This document shows, one piece after another, positions 2 through 17,249 of a stretch of DNA of 30,475 nucleotides. The first letter of the stretch is position 1. Each line of letters starts with the position of its first letter. The stretch lies in IMG/VR virus record IMGVR_UViG_3300050131_000058, positions 1-30,475 of that record, one strand, 5' to 3'. This DNA is from a virus. The position numbers were made by a program, and so were the translations under genes. A model generated the notes under the pieces. The model was not told where the DNA came from and made no database searches. It worked only from the letters and a program-made list of their open reading frames with translations.

Positions 2-424
2 AAAGCTAAAAATCCAGAACTGTATCGCCGAATAAATAGGGTGTCGGCGGCTAAGATGAGGGCTTCGGACCCGGAACGCTTTGCTGATACGCAACTTCGG
101 TTCATTCAAAACAACGTGCACAGGCATATGTTTAGCCGCGCTCAAAAGCGGGCGGACGAGCAAGGGCTACCTTTTGATCTGGACATTGAGGATATCGAAA
201 TTCCCGAGTTTTGCCCTGTGCTCGGGATCAAGTTAGAGTGCGACGTGGGCCGGCGACTGTCGCATAATAGGACGTCGCCTTCGTTGGATCGGTTGAGCCC
301 CGAGCGGGGTTATGTGAAGGGCAACGTCAAGGTGATCTCGAACCGAGCCAACCATTTGAAGAACAATGGCACGCTGGAAGAGTTTCGCGCGATCGTCAGC
401 TACCTTGAGCGCGAGCTAGGCTAG
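2..424 (+). CDS. HNH/endonuclease VII-like protein, 5'-truncated by window edge
   Basis: The frame is open from base 2 with no stop, so this is the 3' part of a gene that begins outside the window; the GTG at 41 is probably internal. The C-terminal half has the pattern seen in phage HNH-type proteins: CPVLGIKL, then SLDRLSPERGYVKGNV, then a RANHLKN segment. Members of that group are free-standing or homing DNA endonucleases; the target cannot be predicted. The upstream part is basic and helical, as is usual before this domain. Third codon positions are visibly poorer in GC than in the next gene, which fits a mobile, acquired gene. The stop overlaps the next start (TAGTG). The family call is fairly secure; activity is not established. 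Confidence 0.7.
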   Translation, partial: KAKNPELYRRINRVSAAKMRASDPERFADTQLRFIQNNVHRHMFSRAQKRADEQGLPFDLDIEDIEIPEFCPVLGIKLECDVGRRLSHNRTSPSLDRLSPERGYVKGNVKVISNRANHLKNNGTLEEFRAIVSYLERELG

Positions 425-2580
425 TGGCTATTCCTGGCAAGCCGATCACTGTCCGGCCGAAGGGCGTCAGCGACGCGATTGACGGGTCCAACACCTTTGC
501 CGGCGCCATGCGGTCCCTCGCCAACCTGATCACCGCGCCCTCAACCCCGAACGTCTTTGTGCCGCGGCCCGCCGCCGTCAGCGCCTACAACTTCGCGAAC
601 ATCACTGACCCTGGCGTCCCCAGCGCGATTCTGATCCAGGGCACACGGGTCTACGGCATGGTCCCGTCCGATCGCTTCCCAGGCTACGACGAGCCCTTCT
701 GCTACGACCTGTTCCTGCAAGCGGCCATTCCGATCAGCGGCGTCACCGCCGCCAACTGCCCGGCCTCGATCTCGCCGAACGGCGATTGGGTTCCGCCGGT
801 GATCGTGGCTGTGACCAACGCCCGCATCATCGTCACCCACCCCGGCTTCCCCGGCGGCAACGGCCCCTACTTCGGCTGGTTCGACATATCGAGCTTCAAC
901 AGCACGACACTGAAGGGCAACACGACCAGCGGCTCGCCGATCATCCAGAGCATCCAGACCCCTGGCGGCAACAGCGCGCCCATCGCCAGCGGCGTGCAGC
1001 CGGGGCAGGCCATCGCCGGCGCAGGCATCCCGGCCAACGAGACCGTCCTGTCCGCGACGAACGGAACCTTCGACGTCAGCACGACCGGGACCTACACGGC
1101 CACGTCGCCCATCGTCACCGGCATTCCCAGCACCGCGGGCTTCCAGGTCGGCATGACGGTGGACGGCGTCGGCCCGCCGATCGGCGCGGTGATCCTGACG
1201 GTCGACAGCAGCAGCCAGATCACGATGTCTGGCAACGCCATATCGAGCGGAACCGCGGCGCTGGTCGTCAGTGGCGGCGGGACGATCACCATGTCCGCCA
1301 ACGCCACGGCGACCGCCACCAACGTCGCCCTGACCATCACCGGCGGCACCCTGGCCGCGCCGCTGTGGGGCGCAGGCAACACCAACGGCAACGCGCTCTT
1401 CGCCGTGCCGACCTGTGTCGGCCAGTACAATAGCCGCGCTTGGTATGGCGTCGGCAACTACGCTGTCTACTCTGATGCGCTGAACCCCACCCAGGTCACC
1501 AACGCCAGCCAGGCGCTTCAGATCGGCGACAGCACAAGCATCACCGCGCTGTCTGGCCTACCCCTGACCAGCCAGGTTACCGGCGGTATCCTCCAGGCCC
1601 TGATCGTCTTCAAAGGCGGCGGGCCGCTGACCCAAATTACCGGCGACGCGGCGACCAACAATCTGGCAGACAACGTGATCACCGGCTCGGTTGGCACTTT
1701 GGCGCCGAACACCATCTGCGCCACGCCGAGCGGCCTGGCCTTCATGGCGACGGACGGCCTGCGCATTCTAAGCCTCGCTGCGACGCTCGGAGACCCCATC
1801 GGCGTGAATGGTCGTGGGGTGTCCCTGCCTTTCATCAACACGATTAACCCGTCGCGCATGTGCGCGGCCTTCGGGCAGAACGTCTATCGGATCACTACCA
1901 AGAACATCGGCGCGGCCGCGCAGCCGGAACAGGAATACTGGTACGATTTCAACGAGAAAGCCTGGAACGGGCCGCACTCGTTTCCCTACGCTCTGATCGA
2001 AGCCTACACCGACCCCGGCGGCCTCTATGACTTCATCGGCGCCGGGTACGGCATCGCCGGCATGTTGTGGGGCTCGACCGCGGTTCCGCTCAACTCGTCG
2101 ACCTATGTCGAGAACGGTCAGCCGCTGAACTGGACCTACAGCACCACGCTCCTGCCCGACAACAACGAAGGGGTGATGAACCAGATCATCCAGACCACCC
2201 TGGCCATGGCGCTGAGCAGCGCGGACATCGTGCGGGTGGTGGCGTACAACGAGCAGGGCGGCGCGCTGGACACGGCCTATGTCCAAGGGCTGAACGTGCC
2301 CTCAACGAAGTGGGGCCAGTTCCTTTGGGGCCGGGCCAACTACAGTGCACCACCGGGCTCGGGCGGGGATTGGGGATCCGCTGAATGGGGCGGCTTTAAT
2401 TGGGGCGCGCTGACAGGCTCGTTTTGCCAATACCCGGTTTCATGGCATGGTCCGCTGGTCGAGAAGCAAATGTTCTTCGAGGTCACCGGGACCTCGGCGT
2501 CAGGGCAGGCCATCGGCAACGCCTATGCGAAGTACAGAGCCCTCGGTTATCAGCTCCAGGGAGCGGGAATAGGACCATGA
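424..2580 (+). CDS. Tail hub / DNA-stabilisation structural protein (P22 gp10-like)
   Basis: 718 aa from a GTG that overlaps the previous TAG. The N-terminus (GKPITVRPKGVSDAIDG) and the Trp/Gly-rich C-terminus (WGQFLWGRANY, WGSAEWGGFNWG, then a segment ending AIGNAYAKYRALGY) resemble head-tail stabilisation or tail-hub proteins of short-tailed phages. Residues about 165-300 hold two Ser/Thr/Gly-rich beta repeats of the type PIVTGIPSTAGFQVGMTV...SSSQITMSG, a common inserted Ig-like module on phage structural proteins. It leads a chain of overlapping virion genes (next start ATGA at 2577). Its probable role is to close the portal channel and carry appendages. Assignment rests on overall pattern and position, not on a catalytic motif; a generic virion protein is the alternative. 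Confidence 0.6.
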   Translation: MAIPGKPITVRPKGVSDAIDGSNTFAGAMRSLANLITAPSTPNVFVPRPAAVSAYNFANITDPGVPSAILIQGTRVYGMVPSDRFPGYDEPFCYDLFLQAAIPISGVTAANCPASISPNGDWVPPVIVAVTNARIIVTHPGFPGGNGPYFGWFDISSFNSTTLKGNTTSGSPIIQSIQTPGGNSAPIASGVQPGQAIAGAGIPANETVLSATNGTFDVSTTGTYTATSPIVTGIPSTAGFQVGMTVDGVGPPIGAVILTVDSSSQITMSGNAISSGTAALVVSGGGTITMSANATATATNVALTITGGTLAAPLWGAGNTNGNALFAVPTCVGQYNSRAWYGVGNYAVYSDALNPTQVTNASQALQIGDSTSITALSGLPLTSQVTGGILQALIVFKGGGPLTQITGDAATNNLADNVITGSVGTLAPNTICATPSGLAFMATDGLRILSLAATLGDPIGVNGRGVSLPFINTINPSRMCAAFGQNVYRITTKNIGAAAQPEQEYWYDFNEKAWNGPHSFPYALIEAYTDPGGLYDFIGAGYGIAGMLWGSTAVPLNSSTYVENGQPLNWTYSTTLLPDNNEGVMNQIIQTTLAMALSSADIVRVVAYNEQGGALDTAYVQGLNVPSTKWGQFLWGRANYSAPPGSGGDWGSAEWGGFNWGALTGSFCQYPVSWHGPLVEKQMFFEVTGTSASGQAIGNAYAKYRALGYQLQGAGIGP

Positions 2581-3572
2581 AGCGCCTCGCCTTAGCCCTG
2601 CTGCTGGCCCTGATCGCCGCGCCGGCCCTGGCCGCCAACTGTTCGGGCTACCCCTACGTCCTCCAGAATGGGACGCTCGCCGACGCCAATCAGGTGATGG
2701 CGGACTTCAACAACATCCTGGGCTGCGGCAACAACAACCTCGCCAAGAACGGCGCCAACAGCGACATCACGTCGCTGAGCGGCCTGACGACGCCACTGTC
2801 CAAGGCGCAAGGTGGGACAGGCACAACGACCGGAACGCCGGGTGGCGCGGCGGGCGGCGTCCTGACCGGGACCTATCCGAACCCAGGCATGGCCGCCACT
2901 GGGGTCACGCCAGGGCTATATAATCTGCCGGGGCTGAACATAGGCGCGGATGGGCGGATCACCGCCGCGACCAACAATCAAGCGGCTGGGGGCTCGCTGG
3001 CGGGGACCTACCCCAACCCGACGATCGCCGCCAGCGGGGTTACGCCAGGGACCTACTATGCGGGGTCGCTTGTTATCGGCGCGGACGGGCGGATCACCAC
3101 CGCCGTAGCGACGCCGGCTAGCGGCTCGCTGACGGGCTACTATCCCAACCCGACCATCGCAGCCAGCGGGGTCACGGCTGGGACCTATATCGCGGCCAAC
3201 ATCAACGTCGGCGCGGATGGCCGGATTACCGCGGCCAGCAACATTTCGAACAACTTCACGCCGCGGGCCTGGGTGTCCTTCCTGGGCCAGTCCGGGGCCG
3301 GGGCCTGTACCATCGTCGCGGCCTTCAACGTGTCGGGTGTGTCGCGCACGGCGCTGGGCACCTACGCGATTACCTTCACGTCCTCGATCACGTCGGGCTA
3401 TGCGCCGGTGATCTCCAGCCAGACCAACTCGACGGTTCCGAACGGCACCTTCCTGACCAGCGGCATCGCCAACGGAGTCGCGATGGCGACGACCGGGTTC
3501 TCGGTGGCCTTCAACGTCGGCGGGACCTACGGCGATCCGGCGGTAGCGACAGCGGTGGTGTTCGGCCCATGA
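2577..3572 (+). CDS. Repeat-containing tail fibre-like protein with Sec signal peptide
   Basis: 331 aa; the ATG at 2577 overlaps the previous stop as ATGA, and a longer frame from 2400 is ruled out by that overlap. It begins with a textbook signal peptide (MKRLALALLLALIAAPALA, then AN): basic n-region, Leu/Ala core, AxA cleavage site. After it comes NGTLADANQVMADFNNIL, a motif also found at the start of the next gene and frequent in phage appendage proteins. Three repeats of about 40 residues follow, each with a G(T/Y)YPNP...ASGVT...GADGRIT pattern, then a beta-rich tip with few charged residues. The repeats and context indicate an adhesin or fibre. Export to the periplasm would be unusual for a virion protein. 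The signal peptide is clear; the function is inferred. Confidence 0.65.
   Translation: MKRLALALLLALIAAPALAANCSGYPYVLQNGTLADANQVMADFNNILGCGNNNLAKNGANSDITSLSGLTTPLSKAQGGTGTTTGTPGGAAGGVLTGTYPNPGMAATGVTPGLYNLPGLNIGADGRITAATNNQAAGGSLAGTYPNPTIAASGVTPGTYYAGSLVIGADGRITTAVATPASGSLTGYYPNPTIAASGVTAGTYIAANINVGADGRITAASNISNNFTPRAWVSFLGQSGAGACTIVAAFNVSGVSRTALGTYAITFTSSITSGYAPVISSQTNSTVPNGTFLTSGIANGVAMATTGFSVAFNVGGTYGDPAVATAVVFGP
2859..3242 (+). repeat. Three tandem ~40-aa fibre repeats within the 2577 gene
   Basis: Three degenerate tandem units start at 2859, 2994 and 3126. Each encodes LxGxYPNP, a short ASGVT/ATGVT segment and a closing GADGRIT. They look like repeated beta-structural units of a fibre shaft. 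The later two units are the most alike. Confidence 0.7.
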
Positions 3573-5305
3573 CCCTCGCGCTTCCTTATCCGAACATCGT
3601 CAATGGCACGGACGCCGACGTCTCCCAGATCATGGCGAACGAGAACTATTTGCTGGGCGTCATTGCCGGCGGGCAGACCTATGCGCCGGGGGTCTATCCG
3701 CCGGGGACCTACACCTTCGTAATCGACACCGTGCTCACGACTCCGATTATCATGCTGCCAGGGGCGACGCTGGTCGCCAACAACTGCCACGTCACGCTGC
3801 CCGGCGCCTTCCTCGCCCCCCTGGCCGGCTGTCTTCAAACGATCGGCTCTGGGCGCTTTACCTTTTCCGAAACACCGCTGACCGGCGTACCACCGGAATG
3901 GTGGATCGCATCAGACGTGTCGATCGGCTTGCAGGCCGCCATCAACTCTGGCGCCAGCCGGCTTCGCTTCTCGTCGACCACCTATCTGCTGACCGCCGAG
4001 AAGATCACTCTTGTCTCAAATCAGGCTTGGGTAGGCGAGGGCCTTGGTAGCACGATCATCCGCTGGACTGTGCCGCCGACGACCGACGCCATCACCAGCA
4101 ACAATATTTCGAACTTCACTGCTGCTGGGATTACCTTCGACGGCAACGGCCAGCTTACGTCGACCACGTCGGGCGGCTATCCGGGGCTCCTGCCCATCAT
4201 CAATCTGGAAGTCAGCGTCAACTGCGACGTCAGCAAATGCCAGTTCATCGGCTGGTCGACATGCGCGGTGCTGGCCAATTTCGACGTTGGCGGAAACTAC
4301 AGCAACAACATCATCACGCGAGCGACCGCTTCGTCCTCGCAGAACTACGGAATCCTGATCAGCTCGGGGATCGGCGAGGGAAGCGTTCGCACGAAGGTCA
4401 ACGACAACACCTGCGTCAATTGCCAGATATCCGTGAACATGGCGTTCGCGGATATCCTCGGCAACGACGTGTCCGGCTGGGGGTTCTCTGCGGGCATCAA
4501 TGTTCAGGCGATCAGCACTACGTCTGACCTGAACATAGGTTTCAATATCTGCCACGACAATGCGGTGACGCCGGACACCTTTGGCTACTACGGCGACGGG
4601 ATCGAGCAATGGGCGCGTAATTCGCGGGTGTTCGCCAACGAATGCTATAATTGTAGCGGTAACGGTATCTCTGCTAATGGGCGGTATTCCGTTTACACCG
4701 GAAACACTTGCTATAATAACGGGAATTCCGCGCACAGCGCCGCCGGTATTCTGGTTTACTATCAGGACGCTACTTACAACGGTGCGAACAGCAGCTTTAA
4801 TGGCAACGTCTGCTTCGACAATCGCGGCACGAAATATCAGCTCTACGGCTACCAGGAAGAGGCCGTCGCTATGGCCGGCCTGCGCCTGTCGGGCAACAGC
4901 TTCGCGGGCAACGGAACGGCGCCGATGTCGCTGTTCAACGCTTCGACCGTGGTCGACGGGCTGCAAAGCGGAACCTTCACACCGACGCCGACCGGCGCGG
5001 CGACCTTCTCCGCAGCCAGCGGAACGTGGTGTATTGGCGAGCATACGGTCACCGTCACCTGCGACGTGACTTTGAACGCCACGGCGGACACAGCGGCATT
5101 TGGTCTTGGCTTGGTGAGTTGGGGCGTCGCCACGCCATCCCCAGCCGCCGCCAGCGCCTGCGTGGCGGCTCTGGCAGGATCGGGCATACGATTGTATTTG
5201 TCGGCGGGATCGGGCCTAATTTTGGCCGACCAGTCTGCTGGCGCGGTAACAAACGCCACGCTTTCAGGCAAGCGAGTGGTTATGTCGCTCACGTATCCGA
5301 TATAG
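3569..5305 (+). CDS. Tailspike-like protein with right-handed beta-helix
   Basis: 578 aa; ATGA overlap with the previous gene. The N-terminus (PYPNIVNGTDADVSQIMANENYLLG) shares the NG..AD..Q.MA...LL motif of the preceding protein, probably an attachment module. Residues about 110-470 are rich in short Asn/Gly/Cys turns of the type NNISNFTAAGITFDGNG, GNDVSGWGFSAGI and NECYNCSGNGISANG, the pattern of pectate-lyase/parallel beta-helix spikes. Such spikes bind and often degrade surface polysaccharide. The C-terminal ~110 residues form a separate Ala/Thr-rich domain. There is no signal peptide, unlike its neighbours. DNA at about 4600-4850 is AT-richer with different codon use, suggesting a recently exchanged host-range segment. 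Catalytic residues cannot be named from sequence alone. Confidence 0.7.
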   Translation: MTLALPYPNIVNGTDADVSQIMANENYLLGVIAGGQTYAPGVYPPGTYTFVIDTVLTTPIIMLPGATLVANNCHVTLPGAFLAPLAGCLQTIGSGRFTFSETPLTGVPPEWWIASDVSIGLQAAINSGASRLRFSSTTYLLTAEKITLVSNQAWVGEGLGSTIIRWTVPPTTDAITSNNISNFTAAGITFDGNGQLTSTTSGGYPGLLPIINLEVSVNCDVSKCQFIGWSTCAVLANFDVGGNYSNNIITRATASSSQNYGILISSGIGEGSVRTKVNDNTCVNCQISVNMAFADILGNDVSGWGFSAGINVQAISTTSDLNIGFNICHDNAVTPDTFGYYGDGIEQWARNSRVFANECYNCSGNGISANGRYSVYTGNTCYNNGNSAHSAAGILVYYQDATYNGANSSFNGNVCFDNRGTKYQLYGYQEEAVAMAGLRLSGNSFAGNGTAPMSLFNASTVVDGLQSGTFTPTPTGAATFSAASGTWCIGEHTVTVTCDVTLNATADTAAFGLGLVSWGVATPSPAAASACVAALAGSGIRLYLSAGSGLILADQSAGAVTNATLSGKRVVMSLTYPI

Positions 5306-5314
5306 GACTGGCTC

Positions 5315-5959
5315 ATGAAACACTTTCTGATCGCCCTGCTGGGGCTCCTGATCGCCACGCCGGCCCTGGCCGACCCGAATGGTGCAGGGCCGACGCCGGG
5401 CACCGCTGGGACGCAGAGCGCCGCGGCGGGCTGCATCTATCACGCCTCGCCCACAGCCGCGTCTGAAGGCCAGCAGCGAACCGTGCTTTGCGACGTCAAC
5501 GGCAATCTGCTGACGACGGCGACGGCGAGCCTGACCGGGACGACATCGAACGCCGGTTCCGGGGTGGCCACGTCGAGCACGAACGTCCCGACCGTCTCCT
5601 ACAACTACGGCTTCAACGGCACGACCTGGGATCAGCTTCAGGTCGATGCGTCGAAGAATCTCAAGGTTGTGGCGGCGCCCCTGGCCGTCACGTCCACCGA
5701 CGCATCCGGCACCGTGGCGACGGGCGGCACGTATCAAACCGTGCAGGCTTCAACGGCAGGCCGGAAAGGGTGCCTGATCCAGAACCCGACGACCGCAACG
5801 GAGATCGTCTCCATTAAGGTCGGGACCATGGCTTCGCCCTTTACGGTGCCCGCCGGCGGCACGTTCTCCTGCTCGTCCCCCGGCGGCACGGTGATCACGG
5901 ACGCCATCACCCTCACCGCTGCAACGGCCACCCACGCATTCGCGGCGGTGTTCCAATGA
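5315..5959 (+). CDS. Small appendage-like protein with Sec signal peptide
   Basis: 214 aa, starting 9 bases after the previous stop. The N-terminus MKHFLIALLGLLIATPALA followed by DP is a strong Sec signal peptide. The mature part has four cysteines (GCIYH, VLCDVN, GCLIQ, FSCSS), low charge and much Ala/Thr/Gly, consistent with a beta-sandwich. The segment CDVNGNLL...YNYGFNGTTWDQLQVD resembles accessory structural proteins found beside fibre genes in phages. It overlaps the next gene by ATGA. The function is not known; a decoration, fibre-base or secreted surface protein are all possible. Confidence 0.55.
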   Translation: MKHFLIALLGLLIATPALADPNGAGPTPGTAGTQSAAAGCIYHASPTAASEGQQRTVLCDVNGNLLTTATASLTGTTSNAGSGVATSSTNVPTVSYNYGFNGTTWDQLQVDASKNLKVVAAPLAVTSTDASGTVATGGTYQTVQASTAGRKGCLIQNPTTATEIVSIKVGTMASPFTVPAGGTFSCSSPGGTVITDAITLTAATATHAFAAVFQ

Positions 5960-7395
5960 AGCGTTTCGGCGCGGCCTTTCTCGGCCTGATCGCACTGGCG
6001 CTTGCCGGCTCGGCGGGCGCGCAGACGATCTCGGCGCCCGGCGGCTGCACCCTCCCCGGAGCCTCCACCCTCGGCTGCGTCTTCTCCAAAGCCGCCGTCA
6101 CGCACCAGTTTCTGAACGCCATCGTTGCGGCGGATGGGTCCGTGACCTCGGTGCAGCCCGCCGTCGCCGACCTGTCGGACGGCTCGACGCTGGCGCTGTT
6201 GGCGGGGGCGACGTTCACCGGCAGCACCGTTGTCAGCGGCGCATCCTTCGGCCTGTCGGGGAACATCAGCGCCTCGGGCATCTTCGGAACGACCGGCATC
6301 CGCTACAAGAACGCCGGCGCGACGCTGAACGACACCACGTCGAGCGGGACTATCGCGGCGGCCTACACCGATGTTTGGGGCGGCAACACCCTCACGGCGA
6401 CCAGCGCGACCACGATCACCCAGCAGTATGGATCGTATTTCAACACCGCGACCTGCTCCACCAACGTCACCTGCACGAATAAATACGCGCTGGGGGCGGA
6501 CAGCATAAGTACAGGCTATATTGCGCTTCCGAGTTATGGGTTTATCGGTACTGGTTTAAACGGCTTCGGGGTTCTTGGGACCGGCGAGACCGCGATTGCT
6601 AGCGGCACATCGACTGGCTTTTTCCTGCTCACGGGCTCTGGACAGCGCGACCTTGTCACCGCTCCGTACAGCGCTTTTATTTTTCTGCCGGGGGGGTCGG
6701 GTAGCAATGTTGCCGGAGGGAACTTAACGATCCGACCCGGCGTGACTACTGGTTCAGGTACGGCGGGCTCCCTCATTCTCGCCACATCCTTCCAGGGCGT
6801 CGCCTCCACCGGTACGGCCACGTTCACCAACTCCTCGGCCAACATCGGCTACACCAACAGCTTCGCCGCCAACCAAGCCGTGCAGTTCACGTCCTCGGGG
6901 ACCCTGCCGACCAACTTCGCGCTGGCCACCACCTACTACGTCATCGCCACCGGCCTGAGCGGGAGCAACATCCAGGTCTCCGCGACCATGGGCGGGGCAG
7001 CCATCACGGCGGGATCGGCGGGGTCTGGCACGCAGACGCTGGTCACGGCTCCGGTGCAGCAGGGGAGTGTTGCGCAGGTCACCGTCGCTACGTCTGGCGT
7101 TACCATTATTCCGGCCATCATCGCGGGCGGCTCAGCCCCGGCCCTCACCGGCACATGCACCACGTCCACGCAAGTCGGGGGCAACACGGCTGGCTCGTTC
7201 GCGGCCACCTGCACGGCTCAGACGGTGATTCTGACCTTTGCGACCACGGCCCCGCACGGCTACGTCTGCAACACACACGACATCACCACCGTTGCCGACG
7301 TGTTAAACCAGACCGCGACTTCAACCACGTCTTGCACCGTCTCAGGCACAACGGTTGCGTCGGACGTGATCCTGTTCAACGCCGTGGCCTATTGA
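5956..7395 (+). CDS. Fibre-like protein with Sec signal peptide
   Basis: 479 aa; ATGA overlap with the preceding gene. It begins MKRFGAAFLGLIALALAGSA then GAQ, a signal peptide with predicted cleavage after AGA. Next comes AAVTHQFLNAIVAADGSVTS, a collar seen in many phage fibres, then a long Thr/Ser/Gly beta region including NKYALGADSIS. The mature part contains eight cysteines, several in TC-x-T pairs near residue 170 and in the last 90 residues, suggesting disulfides. The DNA at about 6490-6760 is AT-richer than its flanks, so the central domain may have been swapped. The probable role is host recognition, but the signal peptide is hard to reconcile with cytoplasmic tail assembly. Confidence 0.6.
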   Translation: MKRFGAAFLGLIALALAGSAGAQTISAPGGCTLPGASTLGCVFSKAAVTHQFLNAIVAADGSVTSVQPAVADLSDGSTLALLAGATFTGSTVVSGASFGLSGNISASGIFGTTGIRYKNAGATLNDTTSSGTIAAAYTDVWGGNTLTATSATTITQQYGSYFNTATCSTNVTCTNKYALGADSISTGYIALPSYGFIGTGLNGFGVLGTGETAIASGTSTGFFLLTGSGQRDLVTAPYSAFIFLPGGSGSNVAGGNLTIRPGVTTGSGTAGSLILATSFQGVASTGTATFTNSSANIGYTNSFAANQAVQFTSSGTLPTNFALATTYYVIATGLSGSNIQVSATMGGAAITAGSAGSGTQTLVTAPVQQGSVAQVTVATSGVTIIPAIIAGGSAPALTGTCTTSTQVGGNTAGSFAATCTAQTVILTFATTAPHGYVCNTHDITTVADVLNQTATSTTSCTVSGTTVASDVILFNAVAY

Positions 7396-7442
7396 TGACC
7401 CTCGCGGCGGATAGCAGCGTGTTCGACGCGCGGGCGTTTTGA
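7395..7442 (+). CDS. Possible 15-aa leader or gene remnant
   Basis: An ATG at 7395 overlaps the last base of the preceding TGA and reads MTLAADSSVFDARAF before a TGA at 7440-7442. It begins MTLA, like the tailspike gene at 3569. It may be a leader peptide, a remnant of a deleted gene, or chance. Support is the coupling geometry only. Confidence 0.2.
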   Translation: MTLAADSSVFDARAF

Positions 7443-7467
7443 CGCGGCCCAGCTTTTCGTACAGTAT
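7439..7467 (+). promoter_or_regulatory. Candidate sigma70-type promoter before the 7493 gene
   Basis: TTGACG at 7439-7444 matches the -35 consensus at five of six bases. CAGTAT at 7462-7467 (17-bp spacer) or TACAGT at 7460-7465 (15-bp spacer) could serve as -10; both are weak. It lies in the widest gap of the fibre block and could boost transcription of the lysis genes. It lacks the palindrome found at the two early promoters. Confidence 0.25.
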
Positions 7468-7492
7468 CCCTCACAGCAAATTGGAGAGCCCC

Positions 7493-7966
7493 ATGCTGAA
7501 GTCCCTGCGTAAGCTGATCGCCGCCGGCCTGGCCGTTCTTCTGTTCGCCCCGGCCCTCGCGCTGGCGAACCCGCTGCCCTACATCAACGCGCCGCTGGAC
7601 ACCGTCCAGGCCACGGTCAACGCGGCCATCGCCAACCTCAACTCTGTCTCGCCGCAGTACCAGTACACGGTCGCCTGCACCGGCACGACCACGGCGACCT
7701 GTCAGGGAACCCGGCTGGCCGTCTCGATCACCGGCCTGACCACGGCTGACGCTGGTGCCGTCTCAGCAGCCATGACCGTCACCGACGCCTCGGTGGTCGC
7801 GTCCTCGCAGATCAACTGCTTCGTCAACGGCTACGCCGGCACCGGCGTCCCCTATGACGCCGTGATCATCCCGGCCGCCGGATCCTTCAGCTTCGTGATC
7901 CAGAACAACTCGGCCTCGGCGGCGCTCAACGCCACCGTCGTTTCGATCTGCTACATCTACAACTGA
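7493..7966 (+). CDS. Small secreted or appendage-like protein with Sec signal peptide
   Basis: 157 aa. The ATG at 7493 is chosen because GGAG lies six bases upstream and a typical signal peptide follows: MLKSLRKLIAAGLAVLLFAP then ALALA, cleaved before NP. A TTG at 7439 would add 18 residues and hide the signal. The mature protein has four cysteines (ACTG, TCQG, NCF, ICYIYN) and a compact, low-charge, Ala/Thr/Val-rich sequence compatible with a beta-sandwich. It stands between the fibres and the lysis genes. I do not recognise the family. Accessory virion protein or periplasmic protein are both possible. Confidence 0.55.
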   Translation: MLKSLRKLIAAGLAVLLFAPALALANPLPYINAPLDTVQATVNAAIANLNSVSPQYQYTVACTGTTTATCQGTRLAVSITGLTTADAGAVSAAMTVTDASVVASSQINCFVNGYAGTGVPYDAVIIPAAGSFSFVIQNNSASAALNATVVSICYIYN

Positions 7967-8012: not shown

Positions 8013-8330
8013 GTGGACGAACCCGTGGCGGAAATGGCCATGCAGCGCATTCAAGATCATATCGACGCCTGCACCCACAACTACGTCGAGATGGGCCGCA
8101 CCTTCGAACAGATCAGGGATAGCATCAAGGACACCAACAAGCTCTTGATGGGCTTCATCGCCGGGGTGATCGCCGTGGTGGTGACCTTCGCAGGCTACAC
8201 CTACGTTCAGCAGCAGGCCCTCGGCGCGCAGCTCGCGCAGTACCGGCAGGCCAGCACCAACGCGATCAGCCAAATTCCAAACGAGACAGTCCGAAAACTT
8301 GGTGCTATCCCTGTAGGCCCACCGCCCTAG
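8013..8330 (+). CDS. Single-TM membrane protein, holin-like
   Basis: 105 aa from a GTG at 8013, preceded by a GGGAGGGGG purine run. Residues 1-42 are amphipathic and helical (AMQRIQDHIDACTHNYVEMG, FEQIRDSIKDTNK); residues about 45-67 form one strong transmembrane helix (LLMGFIAGVIAVVVTFAGYTYV); a 38-residue tail ends in Pro. This layout, cytoplasmic coil plus TM, is shared by XhlA-type holins and by some spanin subunits. It lies 168 bases ahead of an endolysin that lacks an export signal and so needs a holin. That context supports a lysis role. The exact class is uncertain. Confidence 0.55.
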   Translation: MDEPVAEMAMQRIQDHIDACTHNYVEMGRTFEQIRDSIKDTNKLLMGFIAGVIAVVVTFAGYTYVQQQALGAQLAQYRQASTNAISQIPNETVRKLGAIPVGPPP

Positions 8331-12310: not shown

Positions 12311-15300
12311 ATGGCTGGCGCCGACCTGTCGCAATTCATGGCGCCGCCAAAGGCAAAAGCGCCGGGCGGCCCCGACCTGTCCCGCTTCATGGGGTCGTCG
12401 CAAGCCTATCTTCCGACCAGCGAGTTCGACCCCACGATGGAACGGGCTGGTCTGCGACCGACTGGCGACTACCGCCCGCCGGAGCGGGAGAACCAGCTTC
12501 GTGCGCAAGGGGCCGGCACGGTCGCTCCTGGCCACACGTCGCCCCATTCGCGCGGGACGCCGGACGCGCCAGGAGCGCACGACTTCGTTCCGGCCGGCGG
12601 CGACTGGAACACGGCCCTGACCAAGGCGCGCACGGCTCCCGGCGTAGCGCGAGCCTTCATTGAGGGGGCACAAGGCGGCCAGGGGCGGCATATCCACGTC
12701 GACATGGCCCCCGGCCCTGATCTGTCTCAGTTCATGAAGCCCTCCGGCGGGGCCGATCTGTCGCACTTCATGCAGCCGGGCGGTGGCCGGGATATGTACG
12801 AAGGCCCGGTCGACCCGGCCAAGATGCGCACGCTCGCGGGTGTTCCACCCAAGAAGGACCGCGGCTATCTCAGCGGCATGTCCGAGCGCGCCGGCAGCGC
12901 CATGCCGATGGCCGGTCACCAGTTCATGGAAGACGCGCGCACCGCCTACGCACCGGAGTCTCCAGAGGAAAAGGCGCACGACCGCGATCACCGCGGGGAG
13001 CTTCAGGATACGCCGCGCCTGCGCGCCGCCGACCGGCTGGGCGGCGACGCATGGAACGTCGTGGCGTCGCCCGCCACGGCGGCGGTCAAGGCGCTCGGCA
13101 ATCTGAACCAGCAGGACGCGGAAGTCGTCTCGGGCTTTGGCCTATCGATGATACCCCTTGGCCGGGCCGCCAAGGGTATAGAGGCCGAACGCGAGGCGTC
13201 CGCACCCATGGAGACCGAAGCGTCGCGCGCGGCTGCGGACGCCCACGCTGCGGCGCGCGCGGACCTACGAAACGCCAAGACCCCGGAAGAGCAAGCGGCG
13301 GCCAGGGCGCGGATGCGCACCGCCGGCTCTTATGTCGATCCGGCCAAGGTGCGAGCGCCGAAGCCGCCGAAGGGCTCCGCGGCGGGGCCGCGATTGCCGG
13401 GGGTAGGCGTGGTCGGCGACGAGAAGGACCCCGCCGAGCGCGTCGACAGCGCCCTGTTCCGAAACGGCAACCACGCCACCGACGACAAGATCGCCGCGGT
13501 CCAGGCGGTCAAGAAGCTGCCGAAGAACCTGCGTGACGCCAAGGTCCAGGCCAAGGCGCTGGAGGAAGTCGAGCACAGAGGGCTGGTCGATCCGAAGGCC
13601 AAGCTGTCTGCGGAGACCAAGCAACTGGAGGCAGTCCGCAAGCCGTGGGCCGAAGAACAGCGCAACGGGATCAACGAGATTCGCAAACGCCTAGCCGCCA
13701 AGGGTATGAGCGAGGCTGAGATCGAAGAGTATGCGCCGGATAGCGGCTATGTGCCGCGGCGGGTCCAGGGCAAGTCGGCAGGCTTCGACGCCGCCGATCC
13801 CGACGCGCAGAGCCGCAACCCGCTGCGGATCGGCAGCGGACGGTCTCTGACCAAGCAGACCGGCTCCATGCGTGAGCGGACCCAGATCGTGCTGGAGGAC
13901 GCCACCGGCCAGCGGCGGTTCGAGCACCGAAACAAGACCAACGAAGAGTGGAAGCCGGGGATGCAGGTTCGCGATCCTCTGACCGGCAAGCCCATGACGG
14001 TGAAGCAGGCGACGGTCAAGGAGATCGAGGGCGCCGGCGCGCGGGACACCAAGGGCAATCTGCTCACCTACCACAAGAACCCACTGGCCAATACGATCGA
14101 CGAGGCGCTGAAGGTCAAGCGGGTCCTGCGCAACATGGACGTGCTGGAAGAGTTGACCAAGAACCTCCAGGGGCAAGGGCTGGCCCATCACGTCGAGTGG
14201 CACTATCCGGCCGGCGAAGCCGAAGAAGGCGCGGCCTCCCGGACCTGGGCTCGGGCGCGCAGCCCTAAGCCCACACCGCAGGGCTTTGAGGAACTGCCGC
14301 ACATCCCGCAGCTTAAGGGCTGGGCCTTCGATCCAAAAGTGGCGGAAGTGCTGAAGGATTACTATCCGCCGAAGGGCCGGTTCGACGCGCTGGACGAGAG
14401 CTTCGCCGTGGTCAACCGCGCGCTGAACGCCTCGCTGTTCGTGACGCCGTTCCCGCACATCAAGAACGTCTCGACCATGGGCTTCATCGGCCGGGGCTGG
14501 GACTGGCTCCCGGTCGGCGGCAACTATGGCCGGCTGATGCGGACGGGCCGGGAGGCGGCCAGGGAGGTTCTGACGCTCGGGCCGAAGTACCGGGAATTCC
14601 TACGCGACGGCGCGAGCCTGCGCGCCGGTGACGAGGCCACCCGAAACTTCCACCAGAAGCTCCTGGAGATGACGTCAGAGCAACTGGCCAAGGATCCGCG
14701 CGCGGCCAAGGCCATGGGCTTCGCCAACCCTGTCGAGGCCGCCAAGGCGCTCTATAGCGCCTCGCACAAGTTCCTCTGGAACGCCAACGACATGGTGATG
14801 TTTCAGCGCTACCTGGAGCTTAAAGAGAAGGGCATGTCGAACCGCCAGGCGATCAAGGAGACCGAGCGCTGGGTCGCCAATTACCGCATTCCGTCGCGGG
14901 TGCTGGGCAAGCGGTGGACCGCCGAGTTGTTCAAGAACAGCAATGTCCTGAACTTCGGCCACTACGGCTATGGGAAGTTCCGCGCCATCGGCGAGATGAT
15001 CAAGGGCCTGACGACCGGGACCAAGGAAGAGCGGCTGGACGCCGCCGGCAAGGTGGCCATGGTCGGCGTGCTGGGCCTGATCATTCAGCCGCTGCTGACG
15101 GCCATTGCTCAGCACGTCACCGGCAATCAGAATGCCAAGGTGCAGGGCGGCGGCGAGATGACCGTGATCAACAATCTGACGGACCCGGAGAAGGACTGGA
15201 CCCAGAAGGCCGCATCGATCGTCGAGCCGGCGCCGCTGATCGACGCTGAAGCCGAGTCGCCGGTGCTGGGCGGCAACCGGAATATCTTCACCGGCAAGAA

Positions 15301-15568
15301 CACTGTCGAGCCGGGCTCGACGCCGCTCGGCCAGGCGGCGCAGGCCGGCGAGTGGCTGGCCGGGAAGTTCTACCCCGCGCAGCTTGGCATGGAACTGATG
15401 AAGCCGGGCGGCGCGGAACAGGCGCTGGGCCAACTGGCCGGGGTCAGTCTGCCGCCGGACAGCAGCGCCGCGGGCAAGGCCAAGGGCAAAGCCTATGATC
15501 GCTCCCGCGCCAAGAGCCGGGAGAAGAAGGACACGATCGAGCGCATGATCAGGGACCGGCTACAATGA
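12311..15568 (+). CDS. Large internal virion/ejection protein with possible M15-like peptidase segment
   Basis: 1085 aa; AGGGG lies six bases before the ATG. Four copies of DLS(Q/R/H)FM occur at about residues 5-10, 22-27, 137-142 and 149-154. Between them, residues 75-131 read HTSPHSRG...GAHDF...RHIHVDM, resembling the H-x6-D and HxH ligands of M15/VanY-type zinc peptidases that cut peptidoglycan peptides; this is tentative. Residues about 400-760 are charged and helical, with Tyr/Pro-rich YAPDSGYVPRRVQG. Residues about 700-930 (FVTPFPHIKNVSTMGFIG, WVANYRIPSRVLGK) look like a membrane- or DNA-interacting domain, and a hydrophobic stretch follows at about 915-935. It is likely the major channel protein injected at infection. 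The next gene starts inside its stop (ATGA). Confidence 0.6.
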   Translation: MAGADLSQFMAPPKAKAPGGPDLSRFMGSSQAYLPTSEFDPTMERAGLRPTGDYRPPERENQLRAQGAGTVAPGHTSPHSRGTPDAPGAHDFVPAGGDWNTALTKARTAPGVARAFIEGAQGGQGRHIHVDMAPGPDLSQFMKPSGGADLSHFMQPGGGRDMYEGPVDPAKMRTLAGVPPKKDRGYLSGMSERAGSAMPMAGHQFMEDARTAYAPESPEEKAHDRDHRGELQDTPRLRAADRLGGDAWNVVASPATAAVKALGNLNQQDAEVVSGFGLSMIPLGRAAKGIEAEREASAPMETEASRAAADAHAAARADLRNAKTPEEQAAARARMRTAGSYVDPAKVRAPKPPKGSAAGPRLPGVGVVGDEKDPAERVDSALFRNGNHATDDKIAAVQAVKKLPKNLRDAKVQAKALEEVEHRGLVDPKAKLSAETKQLEAVRKPWAEEQRNGINEIRKRLAAKGMSEAEIEEYAPDSGYVPRRVQGKSAGFDAADPDAQSRNPLRIGSGRSLTKQTGSMRERTQIVLEDATGQRRFEHRNKTNEEWKPGMQVRDPLTGKPMTVKQATVKEIEGAGARDTKGNLLTYHKNPLANTIDEALKVKRVLRNMDVLEELTKNLQGQGLAHHVEWHYPAGEAEEGAASRTWARARSPKPTPQGFEELPHIPQLKGWAFDPKVAEVLKDYYPPKGRFDALDESFAVVNRALNASLFVTPFPHIKNVSTMGFIGRGWDWLPVGGNYGRLMRTGREAAREVLTLGPKYREFLRDGASLRAGDEATRNFHQKLLEMTSEQLAKDPRAAKAMGFANPVEAAKALYSASHKFLWNANDMVMFQRYLELKEKGMSNRQAIKETERWVANYRIPSRVLGKRWTAELFKNSNVLNFGHYGYGKFRAIGEMIKGLTTGTKEERLDAAGKVAMVGVLGLIIQPLLTAIAQHVTGNQNAKVQGGGEMTVINNLTDPEKDWTQKAASIVEPAPLIDAEAESPVLGGNRNIFTGKNTVEPGSTPLGQAAQAGEWLAGKFYPAQLGMELMKPGGAEQALGQLAGVSLPPDSSAAGKAKGKAYDRSRAKSREKKDTIERMIRDRLQ

Positions 15569-15921
15569 AGATCACGATCGAGACCATCCCGCACGACCAG
15601 CAGCGCTACGAGACCATCGGCGACTGGCTGTTCGACGGCGACGATCTGCACATCAAGGTCTCGGCGCTCGGCGATGCGCGCATGGAAGCCCTGGTCGGTA
15701 TCCACGAGCTGATCGAGGCCCTGGTCTGTGACAAGGCGGGGATCGCCGAGGCCGACGTGTCGGCCTTCGACATCGCGCACCCGGAACTGGACGACCCTGG
15801 CGGCGATCGCCGCGCGCCGTATCACACCCAGCACGTCTTCGCCGAGTGCATTGAGCGGCTAATCGCGCAAGAGCTTGGGGTGAATTGGGGTGACTACGAC
15901 ACGCGGGTCCAGGCCCTATGA
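15565..15921 (+). CDS. Conserved phage hypothetical protein (HELIEAL motif)
   Basis: 118 aa; ATGA overlaps at both ends link it to the ejection protein and the ATP-grasp gene. It starts MKITIETIPHDQQRYETIGDW. The centre has GIHELIEALVCDKAGI, followed by VSAFDIAHPE, then APYHTQHVFAECIERLIAQELG. HELIE is HExxE rather than the HExxH of zinc proteases, but the extra acidic residues and two later His could still bind a metal. I recognise the pattern as recurrent in phages but know no function. The tight coupling suggests it works with, or is made in proportion to, the PurD-like protein. Confidence 0.6.
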   Translation: MKITIETIPHDQQRYETIGDWLFDGDDLHIKVSALGDARMEALVGIHELIEALVCDKAGIAEADVSAFDIAHPELDDPGGDRRAPYHTQHVFAECIERLIAQELGVNWGDYDTRVQAL

Positions 15922-17249
15922 AGGTCCTGATCGTCGACTATTGGGGCACGGACGGAATGCTCGACATCGTCATGCGCGCCCAGCGCGACGGTCACACCGT
16001 CCGCTGGGCGTTCAAGCGCGGCGACCGTAACTCAGAGATCGGAAAGGGGCTGACCACCCGCGTCGCCGACTGGCGAGAGCACACCCGCTGGGCCGACATC
16101 ATCATCCTCGCCGACAACACCAAGTATCTGCGCGAGATTGACGCCCTCAGGAAGGGGTCCGCTGGCGCCAAAGTCGTCGGAGCCACTGTAGAAAGTGCTG
16201 CTTGGGAACTGGATCGCAAGACGGGACAGGAGACGTTCAAACGCGGGGGCATAGCTGTACCGCCCTACCGCGAATTTAGCGACTACGATGCGGCCATCGC
16301 CTATGTGAAACGCGAGAACCGGGCCTTTGTATCGAAGCCATCCTATGACGAGCCAGACAAATCCCTGTCGTACGTCGCGAAGTCGCCGGCGGACCTCGTC
16401 TATATGCTCGAACGGTGGAAAAAAGCTAACAAGCTCAAAGGGGCTTTCATCCTTCAGGAGAAGATCAGCGGCTGTGAGATGGCTGTCGGCGCGTTTGTAG
16501 GTCCTCATGGGTTCAACTCCGGTTGGTGTGAGAACTGGGAATTCAAGTCGCTGATGGCCGGCGACCGCGGCCCGAACGTCGGTGAGATGGGAACGGTGGT
16601 CCGCTTCGTCAGCAAGTCCAAGCTGGCCGACAAGGTGCTGAAGCCGCTGGAGGACAAGATCGTCCGCAGCGGCCACACCGGATATGTCGACGTGAACTGC
16701 ATCATCGACGAGGACGGCGACCCCTGGCCGCTGGAGTTCACAATGCGGTTCGGATGGCCTACCTTCAACATTCAACAGGCCCTGGTCGAAGGTGATTGTA
16801 TCGAATGGTTGGCAAGCCTCTTAGACGGGCGCGACTCGAAGCCCTTCGCGCACAACAAGATCGCGACGGGAGTGGTGATGGCTCTGCCCGAATTCCCATA
16901 TGGGAAGACCCCGATGGAGAACATCCTGGGAGTGCCGGTCTACAACGTGAACCCCGACCGGCCGCACGACCGCATACACCCCATCGGCTTGATGAAGGGC
17001 GAAGCCTGGCAAAACGACCCGGACGGCCAGATGCAGAAGAAGCCCACCCTGTTGGCGGCGGGCGACTACCTGCTAGTGGCAAGCGGAACGGGCGAAACCG
17101 TGCGCCAAGCAAGGGGTTCAGCCTACCGGACCCTGGAGAAAATTCAGGCCCCGGCCTCGCCGTTCTGGAGGCCGGATATAGGGCAGCGCTTGAAGGCCCA
17201 GCTTCCCGAGATCCAGGCGCAGGGCTACGCGACCGGAATGAACTTCTAG
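15918..17249 (+). CDS. PurD-like ATP-grasp ligase
   Basis: 443 aa; ATGA overlap with the previous gene. The layout follows phosphoribosylamine-glycine ligase: an N-terminal Rossmann-like part (MKVLIVDYWGTDG; ADIIILAD), the ATP-grasp lysine region (FVSKPS at 137-142), FILQEKISGCEMAVG, then GDRGPNVGEMGT at about 215-226 (PurD: GDxGPNTGGMG), then LEFTMRFGWPT at 272-282 (PurD: EFNxRFGDPE). In the last motif the metal-binding Asn is Thr and DPE is WPT, so purine synthesis is doubtful. ATP-grasp enzymes join a carboxylate to an amine; here the substrate could be a nucleotide, a protein or a DNA base. The segment at about 16160-16520 is AT-richer than its flanks. Confidence 0.75.
   Translation: MKVLIVDYWGTDGMLDIVMRAQRDGHTVRWAFKRGDRNSEIGKGLTTRVADWREHTRWADIIILADNTKYLREIDALRKGSAGAKVVGATVESAAWELDRKTGQETFKRGGIAVPPYREFSDYDAAIAYVKRENRAFVSKPSYDEPDKSLSYVAKSPADLVYMLERWKKANKLKGAFILQEKISGCEMAVGAFVGPHGFNSGWCENWEFKSLMAGDRGPNVGEMGTVVRFVSKSKLADKVLKPLEDKIVRSGHTGYVDVNCIIDEDGDPWPLEFTMRFGWPTFNIQQALVEGDCIEWLASLLDGRDSKPFAHNKIATGVVMALPEFPYGKTPMENILGVPVYNVNPDRPHDRIHPIGLMKGEAWQNDPDGQMQKKPTLLAAGDYLLVASGTGETVRQARGSAYRTLEKIQAPASPFWRPDIGQRLKAQLPEIQAQGYATGMNF

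Follow-up and report, generated by a model that had tools for sequence, protein, structure and literature searches.

Particles of tailed phages are taken to assemble in the cytoplasm, and we know of no mechanism for the maturation of virus parts outside it in a case such as the one described here. Phage proteins that use the host Sec pathway include the spanins and the superinfection-exclusion lipoproteins. SAR endolysins and the fOg44 endolysin use it as well (PMC6116005). The proteins analysed here resemble these in being phage-encoded and, as predicted, sent through host Sec; the known examples, however, have envelope roles in lysis or exclusion, whereas the leadered proteins here look like virion appendages. 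In Escherichia phage SU10, the N-terminus of the short fibre docks on the nozzle protein (PMC9509320). Our locus would resemble SU10 in a short-tailed particle, a fibre N-terminus that binds the tail nozzle and a modular receptor-binding tip; it differs in that about half of the orthologues carry a Sec leader, often together with a cysteine pair, whereas we found no export signal mentioned for SU10 (PMC9509320). Phage fibres with Collar (PF07484) or Peptidase_S74 (PF13884) domains are comparable in that these domains are present in orthologues of the fibre gene studied here, but in our case a Sec leader is found at the start of such fibres or of their leadered neighbours. In the searchable literature, beyond whose reach most subscription papers lie, we found no report of or precedent for Sec-exported tail fibres.

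The window, that is the whole stretch of DNA that was analysed, is a linear IMG/VR virus record of 30,475 bases. An earlier note had described five consecutive appendage genes in it, four of them with Sec leaders, and all five open reading frames are confirmed. They follow a tail protein gene and are referred to by their first base:

424..2580, + strand: tail protein, 718 aa, the locus marker; nozzle-like by position ("nozzle" is a label given here)
2577..3572, + strand: gene 2577, leadered tail-fibre/adhesin gene of 331 aa; three shaft repeats of ~40 aa, C-terminal tip variable
2577..2633, + strand: predicted Sec/SPase I leader of gene 2577, MKRLALALLLALIAAPALA; score 6.67, predicted cut after residue 19
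2640..2642, + strand: Cys22 of gene 2577, first of the conserved pair, both-or-none with the second Cys in 74 leadered relatives
2652..2711, + strand: docking motif of gene 2577 at the mature N-terminus, PYVLQNGTLADANQVMADFN; 146 distinct relatives
2724..2726, + strand: Cys50 of gene 2577, second of the conserved pair
3569..5305, + strand: gene 3569, leaderless, tailspike-like, 15 Cys; N-terminus with the same kind of motif, MTLALPYPNIVNGTDADVSQIMANENYLLG
5315..5959, + strand: gene 5315, leadered protein, 214 aa, 4 mature Cys
5315..5371, + strand: predicted Sec leader of gene 5315, MKHFLIALLGLLIATPALA
5956..7395, + strand: gene 5956, leadered protein, 479 aa, 8 mature Cys
5956..6021, + strand: predicted Sec leader of gene 5956, MKRFGAAFLGLIALALAGSAGA, from the scorer and a reading of the sequence; the scorer's own cut is after residue 17
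7493..7966, + strand: gene 7493, leadered, adhesin-like, 157 aa, 4 mature Cys; N-terminal helix 37-52 and beta-sandwich
7493..7567, + strand: predicted Sec leader of gene 7493, MLKSLRKLIAAGLAVLLFAPALALA

The starts of 2577, 3569 and 5956 form ATGA overlaps with the stop of the preceding gene, which supports these start codons. Within gene 2577, three imperfect direct repeats of ~130 bases (2847-3243; 71-73% identical, ~40 aa each) are probably the fibre shaft. Elsewhere in the window, a small HNH-endonuclease-like ORF (by eye) lies immediately 5' of the tail gene at 41-424, a slot that holds a different small ORF in locus L006. A one-helix membrane protein 5' of the endolysin (8013-8330), with a similar protein in L049, is a possible holin, a 1085-aa virion-like protein (12311-15568) has DLS(Q/R/H)FM motifs recurring close to its N-terminus, and positions 15918-17249 encode an ATP-grasp ligase-like protein, PurD-like by eye.

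Leaders were called with a rule-based Sec/SPase I scorer, not SignalP, built on a basic n-region, a 10-residue uncharged hydrophobic core and a small-x-small site. All three elements are present in 2577, 5315, 5956 and 7493, which score 6.67, 6.42, 6.12 and 6.49, respectively, in agreement with the earlier note, as is the lack of a leader in 3569; the scorer finds none in the other 26 plausible window genes either. As a control, 9 of 208 non-gene ORFs from all six frames pass the scorer, with a top score of 4.86. The counts of 4, 8 and 4 mature cysteines given previously are right for 5315, 5956 and 7493; mature 2577 has an odd number, three (C22, C50 and one more). The leader DNA of 2577 and 5315 is ~88% identical over 40 bases (2595-2634 versus 5333-5372) in genes that are otherwise unrelated, which would fit the copying of a leader cassette from one to the other. 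Across the loci, leaders resemble each other more within genomes than between genomes, so leaders may move as cassettes; the excess is small and, the 2577/5315 pair excepted, may reflect base composition, so that copying within genomes is suggestive at most. Lipoproteins processed by SPase II were rejected, as just 1 of 53 scored leaders has a lipobox-like site.

In order to place gene 2577 amongst its relatives, we took 146 distinct docking-motif proteins from 218 IMG/VR loci; the first part of mature 2577 (PYVLQNGTLADANQVMADFN) is a module common to many uncultured phages. By a core-hydrophobicity rule, 74 of these proteins are leadered, 71 are leaderless and one (L187) is unclear, although it appears leadered and has both cysteines; the automatic classifier mis-scored a few weak cases such as L107 and L119. 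The leaderless proteins begin a few residues N-terminal to the docking motif, their start lying 7 residues before the motif proline in 39 of 71 and 8 in 11 of 71. In leadered proteins, the cut predicted by a program blind to the motif falls 6 residues before the same proline in 40 of 53 and 7 in 7 of 53. A small second residue leads to removal of the initiator methionine by methionine aminopeptidase, and since Ser, Ala, Pro or Thr is the second residue in 61 of 71 leaderless proteins, their methionine should be removed. Predicted cleavage and methionine removal would thus yield the same N-terminus, 6-7 residues ahead of the motif.

The two forms differ in their cysteines. One cysteine just before the motif and another 27-28 residues further on occur together in 44 of the 74 leadered proteins and are both absent from the remaining 30, with no protein carrying a single one, while among the 71 leaderless proteins none has both, 4 have only the downstream cysteine and 67 have neither (Fisher p 1.6e-17). 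After clustering at 65% identity the contrast stands at 17/22 leadered versus 0/33 leaderless (p 3.9e-10). Total mature cysteine counts follow the same line: an even-cysteine bias is known for exported bacterial proteins (PMC7678975), and the even:odd ratio is 40:5 for leadered docking proteins, 50:6 for other leadered non-redundant proteins and 90:11 for leadered proteins in total, compared with no bias in leaderless docking proteins (16:22) or the upstream tail protein (39:49). Paired and even cysteines, the signs of an oxidising compartment, are thus found in the leadered proteins. Docking-motif conservation is similar in leadered and leaderless proteins, at 0.81 and 0.82 bits in search-fixed columns and 1.71 and 1.59 bits in free columns; as several motif columns were set by the search pattern, this similarity rests on the free columns. 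Taken together, the constant cleavage position, the cysteine pair and the even-cysteine bias make the leaders look functional, and the suggestion in the earlier note that such proteins are exported and form disulfides is strongly supported by these sequence signatures. Its check of whether homologues lack leaders came out divided: relatives of 5315 (16/16 loci), 5956 (2/2) and 7493 (3/3) are all leadered, those of 5315 despite differing lengths and N-terminal parts, whereas about half of the 2577 relatives lack both the leader and a complete cysteine pair.

To follow the history of the leader we used the tail gene that precedes the fibre gene. The related contigs tested numbered 50; 40 of them encode a homologue of its 718-aa product, and an N4-gp56 capsid (TIGR04387) is above cut-off in 40 of 50, the window itself being a 30-kb fragment. 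Seven of the 50 had been chosen for their relation to 5315 or 5956 instead of by motif. A docking-motif gene lies at most 150 bases 3' of the tail-gene homologue in 155 loci, 87 leadered and 68 leaderless, where overlapping records of the same contigs are included, so that loci are not independent events. As both forms occupy the same slot after the tail gene, they are by position the same gene. When the leader state is mapped on a tree of 91 upstream tail proteins, 6 changes are required, of which at least 4 fall on well-supported branches; with shuffled labels the number is ~29. The leadered L116 and the leaderless L135 adjoin on this tree and have nearly the same mature N-terminus, and two leaderless proteins sit within leadered, cysteine-paired groups, L184 without either cysteine and L008 with one retained. 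On the supported branches the cysteine pair shifts with the leader in 2-3 of 4 cases and never the opposite way; with 4-6 events, an independent-pairs test of leader versus cysteine changes has too few for significance. By these patterns the leader is an optional add-on that has been gained and lost repeatedly, together with the paired cysteines.

The phages form a large, uncultured group. The 718-aa tail protein has no match in the PDB or cultured phages and no detected sequence homology to solved structures; neither its gene nor 5315 nor the 1085-aa virion-like protein yielded a cultured relative, and artificial consensus queries of the docking module found nothing among cultured phages. Mid-fibre matches in KBNP1711, Kp2 and Littlefix were rejected, since they reflect mainly a shared GLTTPLS-QGGTG linker and have no leader. 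In 299 genomes the module was found in 3, a Caulobacteraceae MAG and two more of its family, all leadered and on contigs that may be misbinned.

That 2577 orthologues are true fibres is argued by their domains. Tail Collar (PF07484) is above cut-off in 6 contigs with leadered orthologues and Peptidase_S74 (PF13884) in 4 contigs with leaderless ones, in each case in frame with the motif; the window's own 2577 has no Pfam match and hence neither domain. The layout is fibre-type, with a conserved N-terminal part, a variable C-terminal tip and adjoining tail genes. The structural model of 2577 shows an extended segment and a helix at 37-57, with pLDDT ~80 for residues 21-50 only and poor values elsewhere; C22 and C50 are a putative disulfide pair. 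For 7493 the model is a helix and a beta-sandwich (mean pLDDT 81), with weak PDB matches to the phi297 and LKA1 tailspikes and the R1 pyocin fibre, its significant matches being mostly unnamed viral proteins. The term "appendage" used in the earlier note therefore holds by homology for 2577, leans on a weak tip resemblance for 7493, and applies to 5315 and 5956 by position only. No relatives of the spike 3569 were confirmed.

Further leadered genes lie downstream in 18 of 27 leadered loci (30 genes; 5 in the antisense control) versus 3 of 20 leaderless loci, counts that take in a few one-helix membrane proteins such as that of the window's 8013 gene. The leadered proteins of locus L005 include one of 1059 aa with Peptidase_S74 and a GDSL-type esterase; lysophospholipase L1-like (SGNH/GDSL) esterases of Rhizobium phages P10VF and RHph_Y65 are 25-27% identical to the latter but, unlike it, have no leader. 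A second widespread leadered family, with a mature N-terminus such as ANLSQITGPQDPSQLNATINALI (L153, L080, L043, L182, L030), is encoded ~1.3-2.3 kb beyond the upstream tail gene. The family, which has similarity to the beginning of 7493, possibly represents another docking module, and our searches found no cultured relatives of it. A similar leaderless docking-motif companion, searched for up to 9 kb downstream with one pattern, occurs only in the window, L005 and L035 out of 21 leadered loci, and on this search a universal leaderless companion gene was rejected.

We consider it somewhat probable that these observations describe a receptor-binding module whose fibre-like proteins bear an optional Sec leader and are exported and then docked. 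The module would belong to an uncultured short-tailed phage of a group in which N4-gp56-type capsids predominate. Sec would export the leadered proteins, signal peptidase I would remove their leaders and their cysteines would be oxidised to disulfides, a step that the sequences strongly support; for the leadered virus parts, maturation outside the cytoplasm is very probable. The cut would expose a docking segment identical to that of leaderless orthologues after methionine removal; since both forms share this mature N-terminal segment, they are likely built for the same partner, in all likelihood the tail protein encoded just upstream, by analogy with the short fibres of SU10. The mature fibres would then stay in the periplasm until lysis brings them together with virions, to which they would attach. 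If a periplasmic fibre docks on the upstream tail protein, docking would have to occur at or after lysis, for which we see about an even chance, given that an exported fibre could reach particles assembled in the cytoplasm at lysis only. Likely gains would be disulfide-hardened fibres and the keeping of sugar-binding or sugar-cutting proteins from cytoplasmic precursors. Amongst the options of the earlier note, the best fit is late joining of fibres after lysis: the cut leaves the leaderless N-terminus, and conservation of the docking motif is about the same in both forms. Its option of decoys or a superinfection block is less likely, and that of a leader retained for another purpose is disfavoured. 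The odd cysteine count of gene 2577 itself speaks on the other side.

An unlikely but more serious competitor is that the exported proteins are soluble and not part of the virion, being periplasmic and freed at lysis to block receptors, coat debris or act on the surface sugars of neighbouring cells. Such a role would fit genomes that carry several leadered genes of widely differing bodies, one of them for a GDSL-type esterase, and in the window, L005 and L035 the leaderless docking-motif protein could serve as the virion fibre and leave the leadered one another function. The window is where this reading has most in its favour, as its leaderless spike bears a motif of that kind. Across the group, however, constraint on the docking motif and the mature N-terminus is about as tight as in orthologues without a leader, the gene keeps its place behind the tail gene, and 18 of 21 leadered loci have no second leaderless docking gene within the 9 kb and one pattern searched. 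Weak or saturable export, with a cytoplasmic share assembling normally and an exported share having a second function, is less likely still: it would account for a docking motif kept alongside export signatures, but the leaders are strong, a retained leader would bury the N-terminus that is exposed in leaderless orthologues, and the cysteine pair points to an oxidised working form. Very improbable is an uncleaved membrane or virion anchor, since, although N-terminal hydrophobic segments can anchor proteins, small-x-small sites lie at constant distance from the motif, the cysteine pair and even-cysteine bias are tied to the leader, and the lipobox-like site is confined to the single scored leader noted above. 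Equally improbable are neutral leftovers captured with host secreted-protein genes and tolerated, as the slight within-genome likeness of leaders might suggest, since leaders persist in deeply diverged relatives with structure and cleavage position intact and are accompanied by cysteine changes.

Returning to exported fibres that dock late, the broader proposal would be that in one lineage of tailed phages the fibres pass through the Sec and disulfide-forming machinery of the host and are joined to completed virions only when the cell bursts, the leader having been gained and lost during evolution; we put this forward tentatively, at slightly less than an even chance. If true, a common environmental phage group would have a new route of assembly, in which fibres pass the periplasm; disulfide-stabilised fibres would be open to phages, and phage fitness would be tied to the host Sec and Dsb enzymes. 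The natural pairs of leadered and leaderless proteins offer a means of testing why export pays.
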